Source: Mesodorylaimus sp. YZB2_4 (taxonomy: Eukaryota > Nematoda > Enoplea > Dorylaimida > Dorylaimidae). From it: 64,000 bases of DNA. The notes under the pieces were generated by a model. That model did not search any database. It was not told the origin of the DNA and was given only the letters and a program-made list of their open reading frames with translations. Shown in pieces: positions 5,485 to 64,000 of this stretch. Within the stretch, counting starts at the first letter, position 1. Each line of letters begins with the position of its first letter. Made by a program: the position numbers and the translations under genes. The stretch covers positions 1 through 64,000 of the forward strand of contig JASANH010001708.1 in the NCBI GenBank assembly GCA_030248295.1, given 5' to 3'.

Positions 5485-5688
5485 TTTAACAAATTGATTT
5501 GAGCCAGACCCCGTCCTGCTGTTCCTTCTGTGCCTGCCCTCCACAGTTAACAAAATTGCTATTGCAATTACATAAACTATGGACTTGCTATCAAAACGTC
5601 GCCATGAAACGTGTTTCAGTTAGCTGAAGTCTTTCTCTGCTGTTCCAGCTGCATACGCTTCTGACTCTTGGAGCACTGCTTGTCTGCA

Positions 5689-7425
5689 ATGCTCATCTTT
5701 ACTACTAAAACCCCTTTTTTCGATAAAATTGTCAAATCGTTTGATTGCCATCGATTGGATGCCACTCACATTCTGATTTGGATCATCGGTGTGATTTTGC
5801 TAACATCTATCACCATTCGCGATTTCCTTCCTCTCCTACACGACTACAAGTACAACAATGTCGATACACAAATTTCTATCATCAAGAATGAAAGCGCTCG
5901 TAGACCCAACGTGACACTTTGCCTCCCTTATCACAGCGGTGCTTTGGCGAATATTGTCAGCTGGCTTAACAAAAAAGACGAGGGCAGTCAATTGATCAAT
6001 CATTACGATCAATTCATGTCCAATCGATCGATCGATGAGTGCTTGAAATGTCAAGCTTCGAGGAACCATTCTTAAGATGTCTGGACGCGGTTAGATCCAC
6101 CTTAAGAGAAACTAATCGATCAGAACACATTAGCAATCGCAATCCTGAAAAAACTTTTTGAATCTCAAGATTTCACCGAATGGTTTTCAGTAAACCAAAG
6201 TAATTTTAATTGCAACGAACCCATTTTCGATTCGGCTTGGAGACTCTTTGTTTGCATAGCTTATCGGGATATAAAGTTCACGATTGACTCTGAGAATCCG
6301 TTTACTGGAAATATGTGTCCAACATTCAACTTGCCAGTAATTGATTGGATTCCCAGGCAAAGTACCGACCGACTCGACCATATTCTTATCGATTACCTCG
6401 GTGTATATTTCAAAATTGAAATGACGACTGGAACAGATACAATGGTGCAAAGTGCCTGGGAGAGAGAAGGTGTATCTGCCGTAAAAGGTGATTACTTTTG
6501 CTTGGTTACAAATGAGACCGCGCAAAGAGAAGTTCATTCATTCAGGCCATTTCCAAATGATTCCGTGCCTGCTCCTTGGCAAAGATCGATTAGACCAAAT
6601 ATTTTTTCCATTTTTGAAAATGAAACTTTGCTTCATTCATTCGTGACTCGTCGAGTAGGGATCATCTATCCATCGCAAATGAAAGTCGAGGTTCTAAATT
6701 ACTTCGAGGACGTTCTTCTCGCATACACGGTCGCTAGCAGGGTCAAACAGGCAAATCTGGATTATAAATGTGATCGAAGCAATCTACCATTTGACACTTG
6801 CCTTGCAAAACGTCAACTGGGACAGGCTGATCAAAAATGTGGTTACATACCATTTTTACACAGACTTCTTGACCAAGAGGGTCATTCAGACTTGCCCTAT
6901 TGTAATGCAAAAACGATCTGAAAATGTCGTTGGAAATTAATAAAAAGCATTATTATGATCCATGTGATTATACATTTTACGTGTGGCATTACTATTCTAG
7001 CAAGACCAGTGAGCAAGACACCACTAATATGCGCTTTCAAGTGAATATCAGTGGCTGGTCGAATCTATTTGTCGAATTCATGCGAAAGACAGCCCTGAGA
7101 AATTTTTGTCTCATATTGGAGGAGTAGTCAATTTATATTTAGGCTTCAGTGGAATGTCATTGTGCGCCTTCATCATCTTGTGCATCGACTGGCTGAAGGG
7201 CCTGCGAGCAAAGCGCAATCGGAAGGGGGACCAGAAAACTTGGCTGTACAGATGGGGTCACAAAAGCACGAGGTAGACGGCAGAGACTATGAGGACGCAC
7301 AAATGGTAACAAGAGCAGATATGAACAAGGAATTCGAAGAGAGAATAAGAAAAGTGAGAGGAGATTTAATAATGATGATTGAAGAAGTGATTAAAAGAAT
7401 TCAAAGTGCATTTATGGAGAAATAA
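5689..7425 (+). pseudogene. DEG/ENaC (amiloride-sensitive) sodium channel pseudogene
   Basis: The frame starting at ATG 5689 gives TM1 (ILIWIIGVILLTSITIRD) and the RRPNVTLCLPYHSG segment that follow the same order as the intact channel at 39993-41621. In-frame TAA codons occur at 6073-6075 and 6103-6105, and TGA at 6919-6921, yet similarity continues across each stop. After 6921 the matching frame shifts at least three times: PCDYTFYVWHYY in frame 3, then NLYLGFSGMSLCAF (the GFSG of TM2) in frame 2 near 7130-7160, then a C-terminal helix (MNKEFEERIRKV) in frame 1. The intact copy has no introns and this one also reads as one exon, so it is a decayed duplicate on the opposite strand. A multi-intron rescue is unlikely because no good splice sites flank the breaks. 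Confidence 0.88.
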
Positions 7426-9459: not shown

Positions 9460-10458
9460 ATGCTGGTCCTAGGGATTCGTAGATTGACAGTCTATGTTTT
9501 AGCATTAATCTGCTTGACTGTGCACCTTCTGATCATCTTGCGAATGTGTCTATTAAGTCTGACAGGCTCTCCGTTTTCAATAATCAAGAATCCTGACAAA
9601 AATGGCGTGACCTGACTAATAAATTTTGACATAAAGCAGTCGTAAAACTAGCGGCAATGCACGGCGGCAAAGAGCCTAACGAACTTGATGAGAGAGTTTG
9701 GGAATGGAATGATTGTCCAAAGCACCCAATTACGAGCATGGGTACAGAAAAGAGGTGACCCCATCAACAGAGTACAGGTTCAGAGCAATAGAAAAATTAA
9801 TGAGGCATAATTCACTTAGCTGTTCCTAATAAGGCGCAACGCACAGTACATGTGCACAATACATACTCGCAATTCAATGCGAGCATAACAAATCTCCACG
9901 AATCTTCAGGGATATAATTATTTCTGAAGAGTATGCACGATCCCAATCAAGCCGCACTCCCAGGTCAAAAGTACAGGCGCTCATTCGCGCAGCAGAACTT
10001 TTAATTCTACATTAGTATTGACGCGAGTGGATCGCATATACACTATACTCTGGTTACTCTCCTGTGCCCCATGGGTGACCCTTCATTCAAACGTACTGAA
10101 CCCCTATGAGATAAAACCTTCAAGGTCGTATCACTACAGAGCACAATCAATCATGAGCAGCCGATTCATGACGCTAGTCTGGCTTTTTTCTCAAGATTAG
10201 TATATTCCATCTGACTTTCTTAGGGTTGATAGTCGTTGTATCGATAAAAACCCCTTGCCTTAGTTAGCTTAAAAACCCCACTCACGACTAGCGTTCAGCA
10301 GTATGTATAAGCATCCATCTTCATCAGTCCATTAGAGCGAGAGAGCGCCTCTGTGGACACCTGCAGGGCGCCTCTTTGCGTTTGCAGAGAACCTTATCTT
10401 ATGCCGGAGCGCAGAGTCAGCTTTTCAGGCAAGTGATCGTCCATCCAGCCCATAAATC
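9460..10458. other. Intergenic, nothing recognised
   Basis: This is the 3' flank of the membrane-protein gene, with a poly(A) signal candidate AATAAA at 9618-9623, and the 5' flank of the ionotropic receptor. No domain-bearing frame or clear repeat was seen. Confidence 0.5.
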
Positions 10459-11685
10459 ATGAACATAAAAATTGGCATCATCGGCACCTACTCAATACCT
10501 CTGACTGGCCACACCAGCGAGGCTGTCCAGGCCATTTGTCATTTAATGCCCCTTAATTGCACTCTGGTCTGGTCATCAAATAACTATGATTTTGGAGACG
10601 CCTTGGAAAATGGGGCAGGATCTGGAATGATTGGAATGGTGCAACGAGGTGAAATAGACACTTTCGAGCCCGCCTTCACCCCAACCTTTAGTCGATATCG
10701 AGCTATCGATTTCACTGACCCATTCTTTCACGTCAATGTGTATATGGTTTCGCGAGCACCCGTCAGGTATGACTCCAAATTCAGTTTCGGTATTGTATCA
10801 GCTCTCAGTTGGCAGACTTGGTGCGTTTTTATCAGCGCTCTTCTTCTAACTTCTGCTTTTATCTCATATTTTGCGAAAAAGTTATTAGTAAAGCAGCCTC
10901 AGCCAGAAGCGCACTGGATTTTGGCCTTATTTTCGCATTGGCCAGCCCTGATTACTCATAAACACAAAGACCATTATTTGGTCTTACATTTCGCTCGTTT
11001 GACAGTAGCCTGTTGGTCATTAGCCGCCTTGGTCATAGCCTGTTCTTACACAGCTATACTATTTTCTGATAAATTGAGGAAGACTGATGCCTTACCTTAC
11101 AAGGACCTTTACGAATTTATCGATTGCTTGGAGAGAGGTCAGTGCAGATTTATAATACCATCCCTATCCATGAGCATCATGCAAATATTGACTGCACGTG
11201 ATAATTCTCTCGGCCGACGAATACAAACAACGTTTATCGAACGCCCTCCGATCATAAAACCCATGGAAAAAATAAGAAACGCCATTTTGGCCGAGCAAGA
11301 CGAATTCCTTGTTTGGTTCGGTGATAAAGGCACATTTGAGCAGTATTTTGGCGATAATCGCGATTGCAAATTGTATGTGATAGAAGCACCCTTTCGAGAA
11401 CCTTGGGCATTTCCAATTAGGAGACACTCGGAACTGAAAGCGTTATTGAATGAAGCGGCAGCTGCCTTTCAAGAACGTGGATTGGCGCAAGGTATACTTT
11501 TGAAATACGAATCGCGATGGAGTACTTGTGATCAGACCGCATACAACAGTCTGACTGCAGCTGGCATGTCCGATTCGTCAACTGTATATGCAGCATTAGG
11601 TTTCCTGGGATTGGGAATTTTCGCGGGTATGAGCTCATTTTTGGTGGAAGTTGGGTTAAAGTTGTGGAAAAGGCGTTCGTCATAA
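10459..11685 (+). CDS. Ionotropic receptor (divergent iGluR-like ligand-gated channel)
   Basis: A single exon of 408 aa from ATG 10459. The order is that of the ionotropic receptor family: ligand-binding lobe S1 (IKIGIIGTYSIP to IDFTDPFFHVNVYMVSRAP, about residues 3-100), TM1 (WCVFISALLLTSAFISYF), a re-entrant pore stretch (HWILALFSHWPALITHK), TM2 ending in SYTAILFSDKL (the SYTAxL-like signature), lobe S2 (about residues 210-360), TM3 (VYAALGFLGLGIFAGMSSFLV) and a very short tail. There is no amino-terminal domain and no signal peptide ahead of S1, so a small upstream exon with the signal may be missing from this model. IRs act at the plasma membrane of sensory neurons. The ligand cannot be inferred. 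An AATAAA at 12181 is a possible poly(A) signal. Confidence 0.88.
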   Translation: MNIKIGIIGTYSIPLTGHTSEAVQAICHLMPLNCTLVWSSNNYDFGDALENGAGSGMIGMVQRGEIDTFEPAFTPTFSRYRAIDFTDPFFHVNVYMVSRAPVRYDSKFSFGIVSALSWQTWCVFISALLLTSAFISYFAKKLLVKQPQPEAHWILALFSHWPALITHKHKDHYLVLHFARLTVACWSLAALVIACSYTAILFSDKLRKTDALPYKDLYEFIDCLERGQCRFIIPSLSMSIMQILTARDNSLGRRIQTTFIERPPIIKPMEKIRNAILAEQDEFLVWFGDKGTFEQYFGDNRDCKLYVIEAPFREPWAFPIRRHSELKALLNEAAAAFQERGLAQGILLKYESRWSTCDQTAYNSLTAAGMSDSSTVYAALGFLGLGIFAGMSSFLVEVGLKLWKRRSS

Positions 11686-32120: not shown

Positions 32121-32435
32121 ATGTCTGCATCGGGTCACTTCGTTGTATTATGTATGGCGATCACGATCTTGGTCTCGCCTGTGCTTACTGAATCTCGAAT
32201 GCCCGCCCGTGTCCAACTTCTGGCCTGGTCATCCCCTCGCACATCGCCCGACTGGCCCCCAGGTAATGCAGTCAATCCGAATATCAATGAGAAGAAAGAA
32301 AAACGTGCAGGTGGTGATTTCTCAAAACTTTGGGGACCTTTAGACGCGGATACAAATCAAGGTTGGAAAATGTATTGGGGAAACCGAAGAAGACGTCAAG
32401 GTATTTTCAAAGATTGGTGGGCTTCAAAGCTTTAA
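32121..32435 (+). CDS. Secreted peptide precursor 1 (one AGGDFSKLW unit, RRRR site, pQGIFKDWW-type peptide)
   Basis: A single exon from ATG 32121, 104 aa. Residues 8-23 are a signal-peptide core (VVLCMAITILVSPVL). After a spacer, KR at 61-62 releases a peptide starting AGGDFSKLWGPL (63 onward) that runs to an RRRR site at 89-92. The last peptide, QGIFKDWWASKL (93-104), starts with Gln, which can cyclise. G-I-F-K-D-W-W resembles the G-D-F-S-K-L-W core. The AGGDFSKLW unit is identical to four units of the precursor at 35112-35519. Two AATAAA signals follow at 32462-32467 and 32496-32501. Neuropeptide or peptide hormone is inferred from architecture. I match it to no named family. Confidence 0.82.
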   Translation: MSASGHFVVLCMAITILVSPVLTESRMPARVQLLAWSSPRTSPDWPPGNAVNPNINEKKEKRAGGDFSKLWGPLDADTNQGWKMYWGNRRRRQGIFKDWWASKL

Positions 32436-33724
32436 GGTTCAATTGATATGTATGATGTGATAATAAATGGTCAACTAGTCCAGGCGGTACCTTTGAATAA
32501 AGTTGAACTATACGTGCGGTTTTTTTTATAAACTGCCTATCGATCAGAATTTTGACTTGAACATGTTCGTATGTTAGGGAAAAAGCCTACATGTAAAAGG
32601 CCTTTATAAATTACAGTTGGACACGAGACAAAATGACCAACCTTTGGGTGTATATAATGGAAGCGAGCACATGCTGCGAAAATCAATGCATTTTTATTAT
32701 GTCGATTGTTTTCAAAACACAAAAAGAACATCCATCCATCATGACAGGCACTTGCTCATTCGACTAGTAGAAATGGAAAATTGCCCCGAATTTTTCTTTT
32801 GTTCAGTTAGAGGTTTTATTGAAAATGCATAGTGCATCATTTTTAAAGGTCATGAAACCTCGACCATGTCCTGCTGCCTTTTATGTACATTATAGTGCAA
32901 CATACCTAAAGATTTGTTGAATCCCTGCGAAATTGAACCTTCCTTTTAAAATGCACTTTGAAATTCATAGCGCACAATATTTGCCTTTTATTTCGTCTCT
33001 TACAGTATATAGGCGTGGGAGATGCAGGCAGAATTTGACATTTAGCAACTCGAGACCATAGAAAGACAGTGCGAATGCCTAAAAGGGCAATGCGATGCAA
33101 AAATTATGCTTGTGTGTACGAGAAGCCGTCCTTTTGAGGAATATTCAGCTAAAATCGTGCAAGATAGCCTTCAGGAAGTGATGGATCTGTCGGTGTAAGA
33201 TTTCAAACACGCATCATCCCGTGAATAACTACTAATAAACATGCGGTCATTCTCACGCCACGTCCGATGTGCTATGCCTACGTGAGCCTTAACAGAACAG
33301 AGAAAAAAATCGAACTTTTAGTCTCACAAGAATCATGCACAAGGAAAAATTTATTTCGCAATTTCCCTTTTCCACCAAAGCCACCTGGCTTATGCTAGCT
33401 TTTTCAAAGTGATTACAGAATAGGAGCAAAGTGAAGACAAAAAAAGTGTTTCCGCCTTTGATAACGAAAAGCTATTTTGGCAGTTGTCAAATCAATAAGC
33501 GTCTTTTCCGCTTGCTAATCCAAAACGAATCCAGTTTTTCTCGATTGCGACACGTCGCATTTTCTCTTTCGGCTTAACGTATTCCCTTTTCAACAAACTC
33601 CTATCAAATGTGGGTGCCTTTTTTGCCTAAAAGCATTGTAGGACTTGACAGCTGTGCTTGCTGGCTGCTTTCGTTCCGAGTGCATTGCATTTGAGCAAAA
33701 CCAGTTCTGCTCATTAAATTAAAC
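32436..33724. other. Intergenic between peptide precursors 1 and 2
   Basis: A/T-rich 3' flank of precursor 1, then the upstream region of precursor 2. No other peptide-like frame with a signal sequence and dibasic sites was found on either strand. Confidence 0.5.
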
Positions 33725-34000
33725 ATGAATCTTAATTTTGTTTCTCTTCTTGCACTGATTTCCCTTTTATTCCTCGCGAAAGTAGTTTTGTCGAGTGATC
33801 ATCAAAAAGATTCAGGTGTCGTTATGATAGACGGCGAGGATGGAATGATAATGGAAGGAAAACGAGAGCAACCAAAAAACGATCCACGCATTCAAAGTGT
33901 TTGGGGACGTCGAGGCGGCAAAGATTTCCTCAAGTTTCGTGGAAAAAAATTTCAACTGGCATTTGATGATGAGGAGGAAGAAGAGGAGAATACGAAATGA
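33725..34000 (+). CDS. Secreted peptide precursor 2 (two amidated-type peptides)
   Basis: A single exon from ATG 33725, 91 aa. A strong signal peptide occupies residues 1-23 (FVSLLALISLLFLAKVVLS). KR at 46-47 precedes EQPKNDPRIQSVWG, which ends in Gly before RR (62-63), the signal for a C-terminal Trp-amide. GGKDFLKFRG follows (64-73), ending in Gly before KK, the signal for FLKFR-amide. The rest is an acidic tail (DDEEEEEE). GGKDFLKF aligns with AGGDFSKLW of its neighbours, so it looks like a diverged member of the same cluster. Poly(A) signal AATAAA is at 34088-34093. It is the most conventional neuropeptide precursor of the three. Confidence 0.85.
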   Translation: MNLNFVSLLALISLLFLAKVVLSSDHQKDSGVVMIDGEDGMIMEGKREQPKNDPRIQSVWGRRGGKDFLKFRGKKFQLAFDDEEEEEENTK

Positions 34001-35111
34001 GAAATATTTCGTCTTACGGTATACAATTTCACACATATGCTAGGCTTGATGATGTAGTGACTTTTTAGGTTTTCACATTCACACACGAATAAATCAATGC
34101 TGGCTAGTCCTGCAGCCAATTTATGAGAGTGGGCTTCAGTGAAACGGTGCTTGCTCGCACGGCTCATTCGTCAAGGGTGACGCATTTCATTTGGTTACCT
34201 ACACCTTGAAAGGGTTCGTTCACGGTCCTATGAGACTGGCAGTATTTCATAAAGGGTTTCAATCTGCCCTTTTTCCCTCGATGCTCATAAAAGGAGCGCA
34301 TGATCTACTTTTCCAATGGACATTATTCACAGCGCACCATATTTCTTGCCACTTTGTGACCACCCACATACGTAACCAACATAGGACATTCCCAATACGT
34401 GTACTCGTACTGTAGGTACATGAAAAAATTGATTGCAGCTTCTTTTCTTACCTTCTATTTTTCGACTCAGGCAAGCACTCTTAACAAATATAGACATCAC
34501 GCCAAGATGTTTGGCGTGTCTGTCAAAGAGATCTATTTATGACTGCTCTGGAAAGATTCCTGTGAATAGTAGATGACATTGTCTTTTCATCATGAAACAA
34601 CAAAATATCTTGGGGTACTAAAATTGATTTCACTTGGACCACCCTCGGAAGCTCGGATGAATGAGACCCAAACAACAAAAGATTTTTCTAACGATAAGTA
34701 AGGAAACGTGCCAGGAATCGCATTCAAAGAGCCAAGATTGTGGTCCTATGAGGATGCCGTTGCAACTATGTATTGGATAGGGAAGCAGCCAAAGAAATGT
34801 GTTTACGCTTGTCAGAGTGAGGGATTCGCTAGCATTGGTCTCCTCGACCAGGCCGAAAACAGTTTGTGTGCAATGTCATCAAGGAGGGCAATTCCATGGG
34901 GTTTTATTCGGGCATGCTGACAATGACATGTAGCGATGTGGTCGGTGCTTCTATATTTCAAGCCGAGTAACAGAGTAATACGTGGCGTATTGCTTACACT
35001 GACACGATCACATATGGAAATATAGGTCATCCTGCAAATGCTCACCTGACGCAGGTTATCGGGGTTCTCTATTACATGTAGCCTGATCTTACATTTATGC
35101 CATAATGAGAC
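34001..35111. other. Intergenic, convergent between peptide precursors 2 and 3
   Basis: Precursors 2 (plus) and 3 (minus) point at each other. Apart from the AATAAA at 34088-34093 I see no feature or domain. Confidence 0.5.
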
Positions 35112-35519
35112 CTACTCTTGATCATTATTGCGCTTATTCCAAATCATGGAGAAATCGCCCGGCACCCTTTTGCTCCATAATTTGGAAAAATCGCCACCGG
35201 CTCGCTTGTCGTTCCACAATGTCGAAAAATCGCCCGGTGATCGTTTCGCCCACAATTTTGAGAAATCGCCGCCGGCTCTTTTATCGCTCCACAATTTCGA
35301 AAAATCGCCAGGTGCACGTTTTGCCCATAATTTGGAAAAATCGCCTCCAGCTCGTTTGGCCCAAAGTTTCGAGAAATCACCACCTGCCCGCTTTTCCACT
35401 TGTTCGTCCGCTGCTTGATAGCCGTTATCGTTGTCGGTTTTAGCTGAGACCACACCAAAACTCAAGGCTATGGCGCATACGGCCAAAGCGACAAACGATC
35501 GTGCCAGCCAATTACGCAT
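35112..35519 (-). CDS. Secreted peptide precursor 3 with seven tandem GDFSKLW-type peptides
   Basis: A single exon of 135 aa. Signal peptide residues 1-26 (SFVALAVCAIALSFGVVSA), acidic spacer, then KR at 43-44. The rest is seven units separated by KR: AGGDFSKLWA twice (45 and 57), APGDFSKLWSD (69), AGGDFSKLWA (82), SPGDFSTLWND (94), AGGDFSKLWS (107) and VPGDFSMIWN (119), then a short NNDQE tail. Gly-Asp-Phe-Ser and Trp are invariant; position 2 alternates Gly/Pro. No unit ends in Gly before KR, so the peptides would not be amidated, unlike precursor 2. Units of 30-39 nt show tandem expansion. Cleavage by a KR-specific prohormone convertase is inferred. The opposite strand is also open here only because of the repeats. 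Confidence 0.93.
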   Translation of the reverse strand: MRNWLARSFVALAVCAIALSFGVVSAKTDNDNGYQAADEQVEKRAGGDFSKLWAKRAGGDFSKLWAKRAPGDFSKLWSDKRAGGDFSKLWAKRSPGDFSTLWNDKRAGGDFSKLWSKRVPGDFSMIWNKRNNDQE

Positions 35520-39992: not shown

Positions 39993-41621
39993 TCACGAAC
40001 ACTGATGATCAGCAATCTGTCGTCTAACCTCTTCAAATATTTCTTTCCTGAGTCGTTCCATATCCGCCATCTCAACATAAACCACTTCATTACATCCTAC
40101 ACCCACACTGACGCTACCGCGACCACCCTCATTCATTTCTACTTCATCCGCTGCCTGCACTGCATCACCAGCTTGGCCAGCAACCACATGCCGAGGCAGT
40201 TGCTGCCTTCTGAAATGGCTGATCTTTCTCAGCAAGTTGAAAGCATAAACTGCCGCTGTGATGACAGACAAACCACTGAAGCCCAGATAGAAACTAATGA
40301 CAGCAATTAACTGCGACAGGTATTGTTCGTGCGTATTTCTCCGAGTCACAGAAAATTCTACGAATGATGACAGCACAGGATGAAGATCCAAATTGAAGAC
40401 TCTTTGTTTAGCATCCCGTATTGCCGCTCTTGTAACATGCCAGTGATAAGAAGTGTACAGGCAAGGAATGGAACACGCTTCAGTGCATTTGTCAAATATA
40501 TCGAATAAATTCATTTGGCATTTCTCGTAAGTTGATATGTCGCAGTATGGAAGATCAGAAAAGGACGCGAATTGTCGGAATGAGAATGGTGTGCAATTAC
40601 ACGTCCTCACCACACTTTCAATAATACACGCGTGAGAACACTCAGTCAATGTTTGATACATGTGGCATTTCACATCAGACCTCTTTTCGTGGACAGTGAA
40701 AATAACTAAATATCGAATAATTGCATTTTCAGATTGTCTGATAGCTTGATAAATAATATCGCCATCGCTTACATTCTCAGTCAAATAGATATCTGCGTAG
40801 AGGCGAAAAGAATCAGAAGTAACCTCATTTAGGGCCTTCAATAGAATACCATTTCTGGATGCATTGATAGAAAATGAAAATCCATGCGTATTAGAGGGCA
40901 ATAAGAAACAAAAACCGTCTTTGAGAATGGCTGAAGGAGTTTGCAGAAGAGTATTCAAACAATGCTCATCAGGAGGTGCATGATCGTGCCACTGTGAAAA
41001 CTGATAACACAGAATTGTTATCAAACGTTTGAACAAAGTTTCAATGCTTTTCTTATTCGATAATAAGATATCCAAAAGATCGTTATGTCTCGTCATCATG
41101 CTGTCTTCAGTGACACGCAAATTTGAATCATATTTTCTTAAAAGTGCGAAAAGGCCCCATGCGGCAGAGAAAATAGCCTGATTCCATTTTAGATTGTAAA
41201 TATCAAGGACACTGTAATCATTTTCCACCCCTTCAACGATTAACCTTGTTAATATGGCACTGACTAAGGACTCTTCAGTTAAATTACCAAAAGTAATGCC
41301 ACTCCAAATATCCCAAGAATGGTTAGCCATACCATTGCATTCGTCAAATGCCAAGGTCTCATTGGCGCGTGGACTTTGGAGTCTCATAACCAAATCAGTC
41401 AATGGTTTTGATGATAATGGAACGCAAAAAGTATGAGCAGGGGGTCTAACTGTGTTATTTCGAGCAATAAATTTCGCCTGAGTAGCAAAATTATTAGAGT
41501 TGTTTTCGTGGATAAGTGGACATAATTCTTTTATCGCCAAAGAAGTCATTAGGCTGAGACCTAAGATCCAGATGAGAACGGTAGTCCAGTCTGGATAGTT
41601 GTGGCCGAATCGTTCAAGCAT
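39993..41621 (-). CDS. DEG/ENaC-family sodium channel, intact, intronless
   Basis: One open frame of 542 aa from ATG 41621. TM1 is TTVLIWILGLSLMTSLAIKE (about residues 13-32). The post-TM1 region (RPPAHTFCVPLSS) is followed by a long extracellular loop with a late cysteine cluster (CHMYQTLTECSHACIIE, RTCNCTPFSF, DLPYCDI, CTEACSIPCLYTSY). TM2 carries YLGFSGLSVITAAVYAF, with GFSG at about 447-450 in the selectivity-filter position. The cytoplasmic tail of about 80 residues ends in a short charged helix. This is the functional paralog of the pseudogene at 5689-7425. Lack of introns in a 1.6-kb gene, beside a three-exon relative at 14-16 kb, suggests retroposition or intron loss in this subfamily. 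A trimeric, amiloride-sensitive cation channel is expected; the gating stimulus is unknown. Confidence 0.92.
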   Translation of the reverse strand: MLERFGHNYPDWTTVLIWILGLSLMTSLAIKELCPLIHENNSNNFATQAKFIARNNTVRPPAHTFCVPLSSKPLTDLVMRLQSPRANETLAFDECNGMANHSWDIWSGITFGNLTEESLVSAILTRLIVEGVENDYSVLDIYNLKWNQAIFSAAWGLFALLRKYDSNLRVTEDSMMTRHNDLLDILLSNKKSIETLFKRLITILCYQFSQWHDHAPPDEHCLNTLLQTPSAILKDGFCFLLPSNTHGFSFSINASRNGILLKALNEVTSDSFRLYADIYLTENVSDGDIIYQAIRQSENAIIRYLVIFTVHEKRSDVKCHMYQTLTECSHACIIESVVRTCNCTPFSFRQFASFSDLPYCDISTYEKCQMNLFDIFDKCTEACSIPCLYTSYHWHVTRAAIRDAKQRVFNLDLHPVLSSFVEFSVTRRNTHEQYLSQLIAVISFYLGFSGLSVITAAVYAFNLLRKISHFRRQQLPRHVVAGQAGDAVQAADEVEMNEGGRGSVSVGVGCNEVVYVEMADMERLRKEIFEEVRRQIADHQCS

Positions 41622-42609
41622 TTTGAGAAGCCACTGCGTAACTGCTGCGTGCTCTGACTACTGTATTGTTTGGAAGATGGCAGGTATGCACCCTGCCACA
41701 GGTTGTTGGCTCTGTGCATATCATATTCCCCTTTTCAGGACCTTTTTCAAATTTATGACAGTGCCTATCTATATGCTCATTCTGTTGTCAATTACTTGGT
41801 CACTATGTTAGCTAGAAAAGACAAAGAACCTGGTCACAAAACCTGCTGCACTGTAGGAAGAGAAAGCTAGTCGATCAATTTGAATTCGGAATCTTCCATA
41901 TGTAACCTCACTGCCTGGCGCCCCATGGCGAGATCGAATTATCGAGCTATGTACCCTAGCTGGGAAATGTCAACCCCTGGGTTTGATGTTTCAGCCGCAG
42001 GTATAGCCGCACGACTTGCCTGCTCAACAGTTGTCGCACTCTTCCTTCGCCTGCCAGGCATGGTTGCGATTACACTAACCTGTATGTTGCTTGATCATCA
42101 GAGCATAAAACAGAAATGGGAGAATACAGAAGATCCCTGGAAGGTTTTGTCTCTTGAAGGCAGCAAGCATTGCATTTAGCTGAAAGGCAAGACTGGTGTT
42201 TAGCTCAAATTTACTCTGGGAACGTCATATGGTCACTTCCTTCGGGCAAGGCAACCTCTTGTCCTTGCGCGATCTTCTTCACATTGACGCTACAAAATCG
42301 AGCTTGCCTTGTGGTCTCTCAAAGTCGCTTGGCCGAGTTGACTATCATTACCCGTCGATATAGTCTTTTTCGGACTGATTTCATTGTTAGTCCTCCACCA
42401 CAGCCACCACCATGAGACGCGCGGAGCACCACCACGCCAGCAGGAGTACTTAGAAACCACGGAAACATCGACCGACTTCCTACACGTTGTATACTTTACA
42501 GTATCTATCTGCAATAGCTCTCCGCCTCATTCTCATTCACTCGTCTCGCAGGTTGGTCGGTTCTTCTATTTGATCTTGCACAAAAATTCGTGATCCTGTA
42601 CAATACGCG
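41622..42609. other. Divergent intergenic region with a family-4 repeat
   Basis: The DEG/ENaC gene (minus) and the dynein light chain gene (plus) are transcribed apart. About 41900-42065 is a family-4 repeat. No other gene was recognised. Confidence 0.5.
41900..42065 (+). repeat. Dispersed repeat, family 4, copy 3
   Basis: CCCCATGGCGAGATCGAATT, CCTAGCTGGGAAATGTCAAC, TTTCAGCCGCAGGTATAGCC and an end in TCGCCTGCCAGGC follow the same order as at 22605. Confidence 0.7.
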
Positions 42610-44179: not shown

Positions 44180-46116
44180 TCATTGATATTTCCTTTTTCT
44201 CAACTTTATGGCTCCATAAAGAAAAGGATTTAGAACAGAATTCAAGACTATAAGAACATTTAAAAATTTCATACTGTCGACATTCTTCCTATAGCTGACA
44301 CTGTCAACAAATTGCCATAAGGCCAACGCATTGTATGGAGTCCAAAATAAGAGGTAAGCCGATATTAGCATGAAGCTAACCCGGAAAGTGTTATTCCTCA
44401 CTCGACTGATCTCGACTGGCATGAGATATACACGCAAGGATGCGTTGGTACTTTGCGATTCTTTCCTCGAATCCACGCCCACGATCAGACCAGGACTGCC
44501 GACGGAAATAGCTGATAATATCATTTCATTATTGGCACTGCCACTAAAACGTCTTCGAGCACTAAAATAAAGAGACACCATGGTATGCAAGACGTAATTC
44601 TATCTGTTGTTATTCTCGGTCTATTCACTCAGAGTATAAGTCGAGCGAGAATGCCTGTGACGTAGATTCAGGAAAAGTCTCTTATTTCTGTGTTTTCGCA
44701 TAGTTTTTCTTTTCGCCCAGATACCTGCTAGTGAGACGATATTGGGTGAAAATTGATATTAGGAATACTTGGCGCACGAAAACAAGAAAATATAGCCCTC
44801 TGCAATCGCCCTTTTCCTGTCTTTTGATTGATTGTAGCCAAAGAGTAAGCTCCTAGTTTAGAGGACCTGTTATTACGGACTTGACAAAATGTCAAGAGTG
44901 CACTTGGCGTAGGTGTCTTGCGTACTCTCGGAAATTATGAGGCTATAAAGGGAGAAATGACGTTCGAAAAGGTGTCTCAATTCATTTTCACTAAAGAGCA
45001 ATATCAAGTGTTCGATCATTGTGCAATGGATTGACCTTTTATGACACTCCTTTTTCCTTATTACTGAGGCATGGCTAGTGTTTCCGGGTGCATACCCGTA
45101 TTTTGCGAGTATTCAGGCAAATAGGAGCGCATGCCGAGGAATGACCTCATTCGTGCATGAACAGGTGACAAAAAGGCGATAAAAATGAATTACCTATCTA
45201 GTGACTGGCGTTTTCCGATTCCATCTTGAAGGGGTACGTTGTCCATACCATCGCTCCATTCCCGTTCGTATTGTGCACTTAGCGCTCGACGTCGTTTCGT
45301 TTCGATAAGATATAAAAACAAGAGCACGAACGAGTAGCAAATTATGATAAGCGTTGCTGGTATCCAGAAAACGAGCAGGACATGAAGGAGGTCGTAAGTG
45401 AATTGGCTAACGGCTGGTACCCACGTTTGTCCCGATGGACCAGTGTTTCGATTAGGGCTTATTAGATTGAGGAGCCAAGACAAACGTTCTTTATGCGCGT
45501 GCATAGCATAGATAGTTGTGCACTGCTTCCAGTTACTTCTAGTCAGTGGGTAAGGAGTATATAATCGCCAGACGTAAAGTTGAGGCGAATTAATAAGAAT
45601 CGCTGATATCCAAGCCACGGCCAGGCAAATCTTGACGTACCATACTGTACGCCGTTTGAACCGTCTTTTGTACCAATGACTGCTGTTCAAGACAGTAAGT
45701 AGTCTGTCTACGGCTACAGCTACTATCAAATTTGAAGAAGCTTGGAATGCTGTCGAACTGAGGAATTTGACCACCTTGCACAGTGCTTCGCCTCCACGCC
45801 ATTCGTACGTGACTTGCCAACACACCTGCGCCGTAACGTAGATGAACAAGACCATCAGATCGCTCATGTTCAAATGTAATTTTATTAAATTCAGTCGCCC
45901 ATGACGCCCGACTGAACGTTGTCGCAACAGACGCGTCAACGATGCCAAATTGATGGGTGCGCCAACACAAAACATAAGGAGTAATAGACCCAGTTGCACC
46001 CGATCAGACGTCAGTGGTTTGGGTGGGTTAAAGTAATTTGACGACAAGAAACTTCCATTATTCCCAAATCCGTAAGACGTCGCATTTGCCAAATTATTTT
46101 TCACCAGCTGACTCAT
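44180..46116 (-). CDS. Neuropeptide GPCR, GnRH/AKH/corazonin-receptor-like, two exons
   Basis: Exons 46116-45194 and 44561-44180, joined GATAG|GTAATT ... TTTTAG|TGC in phase, give 434 aa. N-glycosylation sites occur before TM1 (LGLLLLMFCVGAPINLASL). TM2 is HLNMSDLMVLFIYVTAQVCW, TM3 reads VKFLSSTAFQASSNLIVAVAV followed by DRLLTV in place of DRY, TM5 is LLHVLLVFWIPATLIIICYS, TM6 is FMLISAYLLFWTPYNALAL and TM7 ends in LNSVLNPFLYG. TM2 followed by CW..TYEWRGGEALC is typical of GnRH-receptor relatives, especially nematode GNRR-type. Such receptors bind amidated peptides and usually couple to Gq. The 632-bp intron splits the gene in the third intracellular loop. Confidence 0.9.
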
Positions 46117-49100
46117 AGCTTCTATCTAAAAATGTGGCTTCTATAAAAAAAGTCAACGTTAGACGAGTGCAAGTTGAGACTTTGCTTGCCCTTCGTCGTA
46201 AGTGGACCTTCAGCCCCGATCTCATGCTTAGCTAATGCCCATCTTTATGTCCAACAGGGAGGAAGAAAATCGAATCTTTTGACGCGTAGCTTTCACACAC
46301 GGCCAATTCAGGCCTGGCTACCCGGACGACAGCATAATGCCCAGTTTATTTGATGTTTTGCTGAGCTATATTTAGCTGCTAAGCGAGAACATGCTCGTAG
46401 ATATCACTTAAACTGGAATTTCCCCACTTACGTCCGATATCATGGATTGGTATTATTGGAGGAAGAATGGGGCATGGCTCGGAGTATCACATGATGTTTG
46501 CCTTCTAGGCACTTCTGGGAACTATTACCAGAAGAACTTATGGCAAAATTGATCAAAGCGAGGTCGAAAATACAGATTGAGACCTACGTGCACGCGAATC
46601 ATGGGGGAACCTTTGACTCCTAGCTTGGCTAGCTAAAGCCAGCTATTTCTTTAAGCTTGACCAGGAAAACAGAAATTTAACAAGGAGCAAACAAAATCAC
46701 GCTCTAAGCAAGTTTCATCTTCAATTGCAAAAATAATCCCCATCTCTGACAACTCTGAATAAAGAATGTAATAGGGAAAAGCCTAATGAGTGAACTCGCG
46801 ATCTAGAAAACAACACAACTGACGTCTGTCGTGTCTTGGCAACCACATCGAGAATGGTTGAGGCGTATAGAATTAGAAAAATGCGGCCCGCCACTAGCCT
46901 AGTTCGCTAGCTTTCGTATTGGAAAAGATTATGCTTGCGGAACGGATAAGGATAAGTCCTACCCTCCTTGGACCAGATAGCCGAGGGCTTGTTGAGCATA
47001 AAACTTGTTGACACGTCTTATTATCCCATAGCTAATAAGCGTCAAATGATGCGTACGACATGTGATTGAGGACATGGCGAACAAGTTTTTGTGAGCAAAA
47101 TTGACACCAAAGTAAGGCACAGAAAAAGCAAACTGAGGGCATCCATCGCCGAGGGAAGAAAATTTCAGCTCCGTTAGTCCCGAGCAAAAGAGCATTGGCG
47201 CCAAGAATCGCCTGAAAGACTTTAATGATGTCTGCATTCATTGAATCCCATACACGGAGGCTGTGGGCACTTGTTAACTTTGAACGCTTTAAAAAGGCAA
47301 AGAGAAGCGGCAAGGGTCCTGTCAGAATGGGTCTAGTTCCGATGTTGCAGAGCGCAGCGGATGTTAGGCGCAACTGCTCGATCTTACAGTCACTAACGTA
47401 AGAGCAAAGGTTCAGGCGCGTGACTAAAAAGGAAGGGGGTCGGAGTTAGGCGTGAAAGGTAAGTCACTAACAAGTCGCAGCAGACCCCAAGAAGACTATG
47501 CCCATAGTCCGAGACATTGAACACAGTGCTGGTCATATGGCTGCCTAAACATAGTCTTGCGACCCGGACTGCGTTCTAGCCTTGGAACAGATGAAAACTA
47601 GCTCTTCAAAAAATTAATGTGACTCGCTGGTCAGCCAATCTCTTTTTTGCATGTTTGGAACTAGCAGCCTTGATTAATTTTATAGGCCTTCTAGTTTTTC
47701 AGCTAATCTGTCAATATCTCCTTGTTTTCGCCCGCTGTTTCTACACAAAGCATTAGCTGGCGGAGCACGAACCATACTTGGTTAAAACCTACAAGGCATC
47801 TGTGAGAACGTATAGAGTTGGAACAGCAGGCACTTTCTGTAAGTTTGCAACTTTTGCTTATGACACCTTTCTTGTGGTGCAACCATTATGTGGACGGTTT
47901 GAAACTTACGCGCATCACTACTATCATGACTCTAGGACTCATTGTCAGGTGCAATAGTTGTTTACCTCATGAAACATGCCTCGCTCAGGTCTCTGTGATA
48001 AGTTATGACCACGACTCCCCTAATGACGCATGAAATGACTTTCAATGGCTTCACTCGATAATAAAGTCCTAGGATAAGGGGGTCGATACATTATTTCCAT
48101 AGTGCAAATCTATATCAAATCGTATTCTTCTCTAAGAAAATGGAAAGATCATATCCGTCACAAGCACAAAAAGGAAGGAAGAAGCCTGCACTGTTTCGAC
48201 GAGCATCTTTTCTAATTTTGAAACCCCGTTCTCGTCTTCTCATCGAAGCCCTGTGCACTACTTTCCAGATTCAACGCAATATTATAGCCTCGAGCTACAA
48301 TGCAACAAAAGGCTCATTTCAATGACGTCTTATACATTCCTATGCAGGGGTGCTTGAGTATGACGGCTTGATATCGGTTACATGAAGACGGAGCAGCAGT
48401 CTAATGTGTTATATGGAACCATGCACAGGAACAGTGTCGTATGCTCCATAGGAAATTCCCCAGTCACCTGTTGGCCTGGATAAGTGTCGATTAGACGACT
48501 GGGAGGTTGAACCTGTTTCAGCGTATACGGTCACGATTTTTGTATTTGCACGCGCTAGAGCGTAGCCTTGTCGGACGCTAGTCTCATTTTGGCTGCCGGC
48601 AGTCGTTCATTGTAGCATGTACAATGGTCATATATGGCAGGGGTTGAAGGAAGGTGTGTTTTCACATATGGCCACTTGTGTCCATTGGACTAGCTTATTG
48701 TTCTTTTGAACAGCTCGTGACATATTGCGGCCATTTCTCATCTTTTTACAGAACGTTTCATGGACAGGTAGGAGTGATGGGATTGAGGGATTCGGTTGCT
48801 CGGATGAGCCTCAATTGAATCGACCAGATTAAGCAATCATACTCCATCTGTAGAGTCTCGATTTTTCCTCATTTAGCTATTTTAACCCCCGCCTGTCCTG
48901 GTCTCAATAATTAGCTGGCATTGTCGTTCCCCCTGAGAACTGGTTTTGTCAAATGTATTGCCCCAAATCAGTGCTTGGCTATATCTGGTTTTTCCATACT
49001 AGGTGCAGTATGCACGCAGTAATTCTCTAGCTGGCCTATGCCATACGAGGGTCGTCAGATTTTCTTGATACTGCTTCCAGACCTGCTTGCATCGCTTATT

Positions 49101-55835: not shown

Positions 55836-56999
55836 TCAAATTGAAGAATAGAGCGCACGTCGAGAGTTCGATTTTTGCTTCTTGTAACGAAGAAACCTAA
55901 TGATAACACTGCTATCTTTCTCGCATACCAAATGGACAGCTTCAGACATTGACTTTTTCTGCGAAGTAGAAGAGAATAAAAGACGGCATTGAAATCGAAA
56001 CTGCTTGCTAAAGGCGAGGTAGATGAAAAAATTTGATGCGCAATGGGTCATAACCAAACAGTTGCTCAGGTCGATCAGAAAATAAAAAAAATGGCTGTGA
56101 TGTGGTGGTTCGATTGAGTGAACGGACGTGGTGCTGTTTTCGATTCCATCCGGTGAGCTTGAGCTTGCGCCAAAGGCTTCCATGGCATTGACTGCGAATG
56201 CCAATGCGTTGCAAACAAGGAATATTATGGTGACTAGGGTCATCATCGTGGCTGTGGCATATTCGCATTTACGTTGTCCGCTAAGTAAAGCCCGACAATG
56301 TTGGGCTTTTCGAATGGCTACCACAACCAGAGTATTGAGAATCACCAGGACAGCAAAAGGAAGAGCAAAAATAAATACAAAATACATCCAATGACTGTAG
56401 ATGCTCAAGTAAGCTCGATTTGCCCGCAGTGCATGCACTGCCATAACGTGCTTTTGTTGGAGTCCACTGTCATCATCAGTGTATACCTCTTCGACCAGAT
56501 CATAATCGAAAATACGAATAGCATTGTAGCACACGCTCAAGACTGTCAAGACGATTAGTGCTGAAATAGCCCTTTGCTTAGTGCAAGCCACCCTAGCCAA
56601 GAAAGGGTGCGAGACAGCAATATAGCGATCCACTGTGATCAGCACCACGATCCAGACTGAGAGCGTTTGGAAAATACTTGTAACTGGGTACAAATACACG
56701 GCCATGTAGGCCATAAGCTTCTCCAGATTGAGTACGATGAGAAACGGGACTTGTGGCTCGAGCGATGTGACATACGAGTACAATGCTGCCAATGCGTAAA
56801 GTGGACAAGCAGTGATCAGGAGTAAAGCGTCGGCGAAAGCCAAGCCAGATAAGAGAACATGGATCGAGGAGAGGGGCTGTCGACGAATGAATATGTGGAT
56901 GGTAAGGGCATTGACCACAATTCCGATCAAGGCCACACCAATCATACATACGCCGCATGCTGCACTGGACCAAGCGAAGGTGCTGGTTGCTTGATACAT
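55836..56999 (-). CDS. Class A GPCR, FMRFamide-receptor-like, intronless
   Basis: One exon of 387 aa from ATG 56999. Seven helices are clear: TM1 (GVALIGIVVNALTIHIFI) ends in IFIRR, TM2 LAFADALLLITACPLYALAA, TM3 with LSVWIVVLITVDRYIAVSHP (DRY at 124-126), TM4 ISALIVLTVLSVCYNAIRIF, TM5 FVFIFALPFAVLVILNTLVV, TM6 MMTLVTIIFLVCNALAFAVN and TM7 DLSNCLVMTHCASNFFIYLA. NFFIY stands where NPxxY is usual, as in FMRFamide-receptor relatives of protostomes. A long extracellular loop 3 is rich in Ser and Glu. The ligand is probably a short amidated peptide (family knowledge). A close paralog lies at 63482-64000 and a dead fragment at 63130-63420, so this is a local tandem family. Confidence 0.92.
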   Translation of the reverse strand: MYQATSTFAWSSAACGVCMIGVALIGIVVNALTIHIFIRRQPLSSIHVLLSGLAFADALLLITACPLYALAALYSYVTSLEPQVPFLIVLNLEKLMAYMAVYLYPVTSIFQTLSVWIVVLITVDRYIAVSHPFLARVACTKQRAISALIVLTVLSVCYNAIRIFDYDLVEEVYTDDDSGLQQKHVMAVHALRANRAYLSIYSHWMYFVFIFALPFAVLVILNTLVVVAIRKAQHCRALLSGQRKCEYATATMMTLVTIIFLVCNALAFAVNAMEAFGASSSSPDGIENSTTSVHSIEPPHHSHFFYFLIDLSNCLVMTHCASNFFIYLAFSKQFRFQCRLLFSSTSQKKSMSEAVHLVCEKDSSVIIRFLRYKKQKSNSRRALYSSI

Positions 57000-58167
57000 G
57001 TCTCAAAAATGTCTAGAATACCTATTCACTGAATTTAGATCTTGCTAGGAGCACACCAGTCGAATCAGCCAGGTCTCAGAGCAGCCGGTGATACAATGAC
57101 AGCGTTTAGCACCTGAGGTGTCTACCCCGCCCCTGTACGGTTAAACAACAGTTTCCTTGTGGGCGGTCCTCTGCTCGCCTTCTTGAACTAGAACAAAAGC
57201 GGTGACATCTTCGCTAAGTTCAAATTACTTATCAGATGCTTGCTTCTTCTACTCGTCTGAACAAAGCGCTAGAAATTTCGAGTTCTTCTTCAGTGTTCAT
57301 TTTCAACGGCTGCAACTCTAACAACGCTTCCTGTCTCAGAGAAATAGAGATACATGCTTAGCGAGTTCTATGCGATGAGCCCCTTCAATTACATGGTCCC
57401 AAAGCATTAAATCTAGTCGATCGTCTTACGACTTATTGATTCTCTTTAACAAGCCCAAAGTCTTCCTTGTTGGAGCATCGAGTCCTCGCAGTCGAGTCTC
57501 TGGAAAAAAATCGCTTTTATGGAAGCTAATTCGTAGCGCAGGTTGAGTGTCAGAACATGTGCTTGCTCAGGCAGCAATTTTCTACTATTATTATTGTCAA
57601 GGTGCCATGTAGAGGCAACCTACAGAACAGCCAAGGTGGGGCATACATGGAGCAAGTTTGTTATTTTTCCTGCCCCCCCCCCCCCCATATATCTAGTACA
57701 TATTTGAAAAATCTGTGCATTTGATCGGGAGAGTTTCTGACAATCGAATAAGTATTATGTGGGTGGAGTTTACTAATATCAGGCGCGCTGGTTCACCTTC
57801 CGTTTCAGGTTTATGTTTTTCAGAACTTTGGAAGGAGGTGTATGGTAGTCACCCAATTTTCTCAACTGATCTGATGGTATGTATGTGGGGGCATGCGGTG
57901 TTTCGAGCCAAACTAGTTTGTACCAAAATCGTAAAAAACGGTCATGATATTATTTCCAAAAGAGTCTGTTATGACAGACTCAAAACTTTCAGACCAGCCA
58001 ATGCACACGTGGATAACCAGGGCTTAGGACGGCTGGTATACTCAGCCTCTGCAAACAGCAATCACGGTTTAGGAAGTGTCTAAGCAGAAGCTGCTTTTTT
58101 TCTGAATAAATAGCAGCACGACTGAGCAACGAGCAGAGGATCATCAGCTCATAGTGGGCTATGAGTG

Positions 58168-63481: not shown

Positions 63482-64000
63482 TCAAACAAAACTACACTGC
63501 ACTCGTGGGACTTTCATTTTTTGCCTCTTAAAACGAAGCAAACTTATGGTGACACTGTCCTCTTTCTGGCATACCAGATGGACACCTTCGGAAGTCGATC
63601 GTTTTCTCGAAGTGCATGTGAAGAATAGACGACATTGATAGCGAAACTGTTTACTGAAGGCGACGTAAACGGAAAAATTTGATGTACAATGGGTCATGAC
63701 TAGGAAGTTGCTTAGGTCGATCAGAAAGTAGAATAAATGGCTGTGGGGTGGCGATTCTGCTGACTGGTCCGAAATGGTCTTGTTTTTGGTCTCTTTGGTC
63801 TCATCCGTGCTGTAACTTGCTCCGAAAGCTTCCATGGCATTGACTGCGAAAGCCAATGCGTTACAAAGGAGGAATATAATGGTGACAAGGGTCATCATTG
63901 TGGCAGTTGCATATTCGGTTTTTCGTTGTCTACTCAGGAAAGCTCGACATTGCTGAGCTTCTCGGATAGCTATCACGACTAAAGCATTGAGAAATAGTAG
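63482..64000 (-). CDS. Class A GPCR, FMRFamide-receptor-like paralog, C-terminal part (runs off window)
   Basis: The frame is open from the window edge to the stop at 63482-63484 and covers the end of TM5 (LLFLNALVVIAIR), the third loop (SRQRKTEYATATM), TM6 (TLVTIIFLLCNALAFAVNAM), a shorter extracellular loop 3 than its neighbour, TM7 (DLSNFLVMTHCTSNFSVYVA) and the tail. It is colinear with the receptor at 55836-56999 throughout, including the VHLVC motif of the tail, and the loops are the least alike. No stops or shifts are seen, so it is probably functional. The first half lies past 64000. Confidence 0.9.
   Translation of the reverse strand, partial: LLFLNALVVIAIREAQQCRAFLSRQRKTEYATATMMTLVTIIFLLCNALAFAVNAMEAFGASYSTDETKETKNKTISDQSAESPPHSHLFYFLIDLSNFLVMTHCTSNFSVYVAFSKQFRYQCRLFFTCTSRKRSTSEGVHLVCQKEDSVTISLLRFKRQKMKVPRVQCSFV

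Follow-up and report, generated by a model that had tools for sequence, protein, structure and literature searches.

The closest described counterparts of the genes reported here are nematode neuropeptide genes and hormones of the adipokinetic hormone/gonadotropin-releasing hormone (AKH/GnRH) type; the three papers cited in this text are drawn on in part. Novel neuropeptide-like protein (NLP) families that are absent from C. elegans have been described (PMC8764417). The C. elegans RPamides NLP-2, NLP-22 and NLP-23 act on the receptors GNRR-3 and GNRR-6, and the genes for these three peptides form a cluster on a single chromosome (PMC7303124). The same source gives [FW]-[ST]-X2-W as the GnRH/AKH motif. 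The present analysis concerns a stretch of 64,000 nucleotides (the window) of the nematode Mesodorylaimus sp. YZB2_4, positions 1 to 64,000 of contig JASANH010001708.1, which contains three short precursor-type genes, two of them built on the unit GDFSKLW, and a receptor gene. With a probability of roughly 0.7, these genes belong to a neuropeptide/receptor cluster that has been duplicated in this nematode and in which the GDFSKLW peptides are candidate ligands of the linked receptors, a reading that proposes reception from precursor anatomy, conservation, duplication and linkage.

The GDFSKLW precursors

The three window genes and the relative of gene 3 found by searching its own genome (145,146,385 bases in 1067 contigs) are the following.

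35112-35519, minus strand: gene 3, GDFSKLW precursor, complete ATG-to-stop frame of 135 aa with a hydrophobic leader
32121-32435, plus strand: gene 1, complete ATG-to-stop frame of 104 aa, leader judged by eye
33725-34000, plus strand: gene 2, FLKFR-amide precursor, complete ATG-to-stop frame of 91 aa with a hydrophobic leader and an acidic tail
C172:96635-97084, plus strand: GDFSKLW paralogue (locus L003) on another contig, C172, found with gene 3

An earlier note on this DNA had described three short secreted-type frames, and this description holds; the leaders of genes 2 and 3 are recognized by hydropathy, as are those of the C172 GDFSKLW precursor and of the C172 paralogue of gene 2 described below. 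The same note counted seven KR-bounded units in gene 3, and these are indeed found, in the order AGGDFSKLWA, AGGDFSKLWA, APGDFSKLWSD, AGGDFSKLWA, SPGDFSTLWND, AGGDFSKLWS and VPGDFSMIWN. KR closes every unit, preceded by SD or ND in two of the seven, and the core is GDFS[K/T]LW in six units and GDFSMIW in one. The units have no Cys and little net charge. The C172 paralogue carries AGGDFSKLWA, ASADFSRVWQ, VGGDFSKLWA and KAGDFSKLWG, and it is the one clear paralogue of gene 3 in the genome, the next match having an E value of 0.01 and an internal stop. Across 12 units (seven from gene 3, one from gene 1 and four from the C172 paralogue) codons vary and residues vary little, with pS 0.73, pN 0.14 and pN/pS 0.20. 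Genome-wide, the looser pattern D-F-x-x-[hydrophobic]-W-...-KR shows no enrichment, with 108 places against 107 in reversed controls.

A protein search, which the earlier note had proposed, was rewarded for gene 3 and not for gene 2: among 5.8 billion proteins, whose nematode coverage was not gauged with a known nematode peptide, gene 3 has only the homologues P0001 and P0002, each from a single contig of about 1.3-1.5 kb, and gene 2 has none. The gene 3 query and an alignment query, for which the 8000 candidates with most shared words were scored, return the same two proteins. P0001 and P0002 have four units each, and at every position these correspond to the units of the C172 gene. The C172 gene thus resembles the form that other species also have, and gene 3 seems to be a longer paralogue. 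Identities are 67/107 between L003 and P0001, 52/94 between L003 and P0002, 65/111 between P0001 and P0002, and 52/97 between gene 3 and L003. A Gly-Lys-Arg amidation signal after Trp is found in none of the seven units of gene 3, whose peptides are predicted to be free acids, in one of four in the C172 gene and in two of four in both P0001 and P0002; amidation is thus not tied to gene 2, as had been supposed. N-terminal to the likely signal-peptide Met, the C172 precursor (L003:1330-1476, MKKTNTRALVGRGN) resembles the N-terminus of P0002 (MKKINTRAFVCLGN); this stretch may be an unusual extension of the N-terminus or a 5' leader that has been conserved.

Gene 1 is laid out as KR-AGGDFSKLWGPLDADTNQGWKMYWGN-RRRR-QGIFKDWWASKL, with a single AGGDFSKLW unit preceded by KEKR, and AATAAA signals lie 3' of it at 32462 and 32496. 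The identity of AGGDFSKLW in genes 1 and 3 was seen correctly in the earlier note, and the likeness extends to the bases: in their first units, gene 1, gene 3 and the C172 paralogue are separated pairwise by 1-2 of 24 bases, and genes 1 and 3 by only one. The first position is therefore probably ancestral, and gene 1 is likely to be a paralogue of gene 3 that has been reduced. Genes 1 and 3 are assigned on their shared unit to one family, outside which gene 2 stands. The support for gene 1 is weaker than that for genes 2 and 3. Its pairing with gene 3 is not listed by whole-protein searches of its own genome, where the gene 1 query returned itself alone, and the sole link beyond the shared unit is a match of its frame to the C172 GDFSKLW precursor (E 2e-4) in the comparison of open reading frames (ORFs) between the window and C172. 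The 20 kb of C172 that were compared (86000-106000) showed no counterpart of gene 1, and gene 1 does not pass the motif-free scan described below. Degenerate further units in gene 1 (QGIFKDWW) are not claimed, as their score was reached by 462 of 5000 shuffles.

Gene 2 and the FLKFR-amide family

Gene 2 is laid out as KR-EQPKNDPRIQSVWG-RR-GGKDFLKFRG-KK, followed by the acidic tail, with an AATAAA signal 3' of it at 34088. Its predicted products are EQPKNDPRIQSVW-amide and GGKDFLKFR-amide; the first replaces the pQPKNDPRIQSVW-amide proposed earlier, since cleavage behind KR would leave the former. A paralogue is found on C172.

C172:102049-102354 (L043:1550-1855), minus strand: gene 2 paralogue with a leader and FLKFRGKR, found by reading the ORF list

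In this paralogue the leader is followed by ...KPRNWEKYGRQFLKFRGKR..., and the corresponding stretch of gene 2 reads ...GRRGGKDFLKFRGKK...; FLKFRG[KR][KR] is common to both. The mature parts align with a local score of 47, which was reached by 2 of 2000 shuffles. The search of its own genome with gene 2 gave itself and one match at E=2 and did not list the C172 paralogue, nor did the ORF comparison between the window and C172. On this evidence gene 2 is a member of a separate second family that has its own C172 paralogue.

The earlier note had derived all three genes from a single founder that expanded into two processing styles. The physical clustering of the genes and the unit common to genes 1 and 3 speak for it, and for these two genes the kinship stands. 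The extension to gene 2 depended on taking its GGKDFLKF as the equivalent of GGDFSKLW, and this equivalence does not hold: on the profile of GDFSKLW units, GKDFLKFR scores 2.2 bits, a value equalled in 1283 of 5000 shuffles, where true units reach 20-28, and the match of gene 2 is its own paralogue on C172. A common founder for all three genes is therefore highly improbable.

The linked receptor and the duplicated cluster

Further along the window, on the same strand as gene 3, lie two exons of a receptor gene.

45193-46125, minus strand: receptor exon 1, transmembrane segments TM1-TM5, rhodopsin-type, with matches to Pfam 7tm_1 and in PDB
44183-44599, minus strand: receptor exon 2, TM6-TM7 (WTPYN...NPFLYG), 59% identical over 88 aa to exon 2 of a C172 receptor

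From their position and from the C172 receptor, the two exons presumably join into one gene. Exon 1 is 44% identical over 302 aa (E 1e-79) to a C172 receptor that lies 3 kb upstream of the GDFSKLW precursor. The order is alike in the window and in C172, with a receptor, a GDFSKLW precursor on the same strand and a convergent FLKFR precursor, and C172 has more receptor copies on either side of the cluster. When the ORFs of the 64-kb window were compared with those of 20 kb of C172 (86000-106000), the strong matches were the receptor and GDFSKLW frames, together with frames opposite or overlapping them, and all others had E values of 2e-4 or worse.

Searching the genome with the window receptor brought up 36 matches at E<=0.001, 24 of them at E<1e-15 (the query itself included, and two of the 24 belonging to one C172 gene). 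The best four matches other than itself are, in order, C172:92229, 82236, 87179 and 108003, and the GDFSKLW precursor, at 97 kb, lies between them; C172, with 237 kb, makes up 0.16% of the 145-Mb assembly. In an unrooted tree of 10 of the receptor loci, a branch with support of 100/99 divides the window receptor and its four C172 counterparts from the other five loci. Vasopressin V1a/V2, GnRH and oxytocin receptors are the top PDB matches for the three members of this clade of five that were searched, namely the window receptor and two from C172. The window receptor scores 66.5 bits with V1a and 58.6 with the GnRH receptor, C172:82k scores 73.3 with the GnRH receptor and 68.5 with V1a, and C172:87k scores 66.0 with V1a and 48.6 with the GnRH receptor; a receptor outside the clade has V2 at 53.4 and GnRH at 51.3. 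NCBIfam gave no match for four receptor frames. By these sequence matches the linked receptor is assigned to the GnRH/vasopressin receptor superfamily.

The shared order might be the mere trace of one segmental duplication, in which receptor and peptides are unrelated in function. Two loci in one genome amount to one duplication event, and the FLKFR precursor was carried along too. However, the copies are old, with receptors 44-49% and precursors about 54% identical, and yet the clear shared genes in the 20 kb are the receptor and the peptide genes; furthermore, the AKH genes of this genome lie on C31 and C61, contigs without a listed receptor match. Such a trace is accordingly regarded as rather unlikely, and a cluster of peptide and receptor genes kept together is preferred.

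Precursor character of the genes

A motif-free scan sought short ORFs that begin with a hydrophobic stretch and carry several dibasic sites, its thresholds being set with genes 2 and 3 known. The 64-kb window yielded two hits, genes 2 and 3, and the 20 kb of C172 another two, compared with none in 67 other loci of the genome and one in 30 random 64-kb sequences. The 67 control loci comprise 203,147 bases, some of them overlapping, and 14 of 81 loci were omitted (both clusters and L040). The scan passes neither gene 1 nor the AKH genes in loci L079 and L080, so that it is specific and not sensitive. Gene 3 has seven dibasic-bounded units, L003, P0001 and P0002 have four apiece, and gene 1 has one clear unit; gene 2 encodes two different peptides. 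This layout, together with the scan, supports the view that the genes are neuropeptide-type precursors. A full-text literature search for GDFSKLW, DFSKLW and FLKFR found no paper in the collection covered, which does not disprove prior publication.

Alternatively, the genes might encode some other product that is secreted and processed at KR, for instance a repeat peptide with an antimicrobial role or one related to the cuticle. This reading draws on the secreted repeats known in such proteins too and on the result that no Pfam family was found above cut-off for the precursors. It is very unlikely in view of the exact KR bounding, the GKR amidation signals in some units, the strict conservation of a short core, the linked genes of the peptide-receptor type, and the units themselves, which are free of Cys and low in net charge.

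Relation to AKH and GnRH

The earlier note could name no family for these peptides. None of the families that it excluded fits; the AKH/GnRH type, however, had been overlooked. The F-S-x-x-W core is found in all seven units of gene 3, in the one unit of gene 1, in all four units of L003 and of P0002, and in three of four in P0001, where one unit ends in F. The genome also has two canonical AKH genes.

C31:338578-338826 (L079:208-456): AKH precursor with QLTFSQNWGKR at C31:338671, Pfam PF06377 E 1.6e-6, 28.9 bits
C61:233134-233367 (L080:229-462): AKH precursor with QLTFSSNWGKR at C61:233206, Pfam PF06377 E 2.5e-6, 28.3 bits

These are predicted to yield pQLTFSQNW-amide (C31) and pQLTFSSNW-amide (C61), and a possible splice donor stands behind LMM or VMM in each gene. 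A search of the genome with an AKH base pattern found 18 places, against 21 in the control; four of the 18 were retrieved, namely the two AKH genes and two chance-like places with Gln and no preceding leader, and the other 14 were judged from the matched bases alone.

The gathering score of PF06377 (Adipokin_hormo) is 22.9 bits. The family is the top hit, below this threshold, for P0001 (E 0.0085, 17.0 bits) and P0002 (E 0.036, 15.0 bits), and it was hit by none of 10 unit-shuffled controls. After KR, the units of gene 3 begin with A/S/V-G/P-G-D, and no Gln stands directly behind the signal peptide. With Gln, the single-copy layout and general amidation missing, and with Pfam hits that are weak, the GDFSKLW peptides are best described as AKH-like in core and possibly related, not as AKH members.

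Descent from an AKH/GnRH/corazonin gene is compatible with the preferred cluster of ligands and receptors and adds an origin to it: a precursor would have lost its N-terminal Gln and become multi-copy, while a GnRH-type receptor stayed adjacent. The core [DT]-F-S-x-x-W-G-K-R common to some units and both canonical AKH genes points this way, as do the sub-threshold hits of P0001 and P0002, which no unit-shuffled control shows, and the superfamily of the linked receptors. Neither gene 3 nor L003 has a PF06377 hit, though, and neither P0001 nor P0002 reaches the gathering score; the repeats take the place of a single peptide, and a core of five residues can converge. This origin is therefore regarded as rather unlikely. 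The fuller scenario is less probable still and is put forward very tentatively, namely that side-by-side genes for a peptide hormone and its own GnRH-superfamily receptor were duplicated together, and that the peptides are a tandem, Gln-less AKH/GnRH branch beside two ordinary AKH genes. If the AKH-like core were due to homology and not to convergence, it would show a single-copy pyroglutamate hormone family turning multi-copy.

Proposed pairing of peptides and receptors

In the proposed mechanism the precursors would enter the secretory pathway, where a proprotein convertase would cut at KR, RR and KK and a carboxypeptidase would trim the ends. The products would be decapeptide-like free acids such as AGGDFSKLWA, and amidated forms where KR follows Gly. 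The conserved F-S-x-x-W core would be the message for the linked receptors, so that the genes for the ligand and for its receptors would have been duplicated jointly. The FLKFR-amide peptides could carry a message of their own or serve the same receptors as an alternative ligand; GDFSKLW is favoured as the ligand because of its FSxxW core and the class of the receptor.

Several points weigh against this reading of the cluster. It holds two peptide families, and the ligand may come from one of them or from neither; the linkage may be the remnant of one block duplication, from which nothing certain on binding follows. Between the window receptor and gene 3 there are 8.7 kb, which contain a frame of the amiloride-sensitive sodium channel (ASC) type. 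The fourth C172 receptor, at E 1.3e-37, is barely ahead of a match on contig C8 at E 8.4e-36, and the tree program warns of long branches, with one row covering 27% of the columns. The place of the receptors inside the superfamily is split, the GnRH receptor being best for one C172 copy and V1a for the window receptor and another copy. The match between gene 2 and its C172 paralogue consists mostly of 11 residues, and gene 2 is only narrowly the best of 852 window ORFs (47 against 46). In addition to the missing PF06377 hits of gene 3 and L003, unrelated Pfam families were hit at E values like those of P0001 and P0002, namely HAMP_2 at 0.048 (gene 3), Hao_C at 0.031 (L003) and DUF7120 at 0.02 (a shuffled control).

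Matching orphan peptides to orphan receptors is a step that slows work in nematode neurobiology. In this genome a pair suggests itself, as two families of precursors and one clade of receptors have been kept together through an old duplication, so that ligand identification becomes a question for one assay.

Other features of the window and the genome

Neighbouring frames in the window include the following.

39993-41657, minus strand: match to the ASC family, between gene 3 and the receptor, 34% identical over 110 aa to 5665-6075, plus strand
55836-57002 and 63485-64000, minus strand: related receptor frames, 71% identical over 161 aa, the first with 7tm_1/Srw, the second ending at the window edge
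10456-11685, plus strand: ionotropic-glutamate-receptor-like frame, with Lig_chan-type domains slightly below cut-offs

On the contig of the paralogous cluster, seven near-identical minus-strand copies of GACTTCTGCAGCATCTGGAGGAAG (DFCSIWRK) occur within 1.9 kb (C172:150616-152480), perhaps a tandem repeat gene. PF01484 (Col_cuticle_N), the N-domain of nematode cuticle collagens, has 133 matches in the genome, which speak against the tardigrade origin that GC content, genome size and the mix of IR, ASC and GPCR genes had suggested; the arthropod cuticle family PF00379 has no match, a weak negative, as no control genome gave a match. Inside a 488-kb contig, C73:246000-255900 (L040) contains mitochondrial-type COX1 and then ND4, with an inverted partial second copy, and would be either a nuclear copy or an assembly join. 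Its COX1 reads sensibly under genetic code 5, with AGA presumably Ser and AAA presumably Lys by comparison with known COX1.

Comparison with known systems

Orcokinin and pedal peptide precursors are multi-copy and yield KR-bounded free acids, as the GDFSKLW precursor would, and they are not known to share a core sequence with GDFSKLW. Myoinhibitory peptides and other Wamides have the spacing W-x6/7-W-amide. The units of gene 3 have one Trp each and so no two-Trp spacing, and GDFSKLW units are mostly unamidated, in contrast to the Wamides. A likeness to this superfamily (myoinhibitory peptide/allatostatin B/GLWamide, PMC7270403) lies in the Trp at or near the C-terminus, and P0001 and P0002 would give LW-amide ends.

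The nematode NLPs (PMC8764417) resemble the present genes in having a signal peptide and dibasic-bounded peptides that are neither FMRFamide-like nor insulin-like. The motifs of new NLP families given there, NPYSW, S(L/V)AP(T/S)TSA..., the RPamides and the allatostatin-C-like peptides, include none that equals GDFSKLW or FLKFR, and neither DFS nor KLW was found in the main text of that survey, its supplementary tables lying outside the search. With the RPamides (PMC7303124) the likeness is that of non-classical nematode peptides on GnRH-type receptors, although theirs end in RPamide and not in FSxxW; the part of that paper drawn on here does not report linkage of RPamide peptide and receptor genes.

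Compared with AKH, red pigment-concentrating hormone (RPCH), GnRH and NLP-47, the GDFSKLW peptides lack the N-terminal pyroglutamate, are encoded as tandem units, are mostly free acids and stay below the PF06377 cut-off. They share with this group the [FW]-[ST]-x2-W core and, in some units, W-Gly-Lys-Arg, and a receptor gene of the GnRH/vasopressin superfamily is linked to them here.

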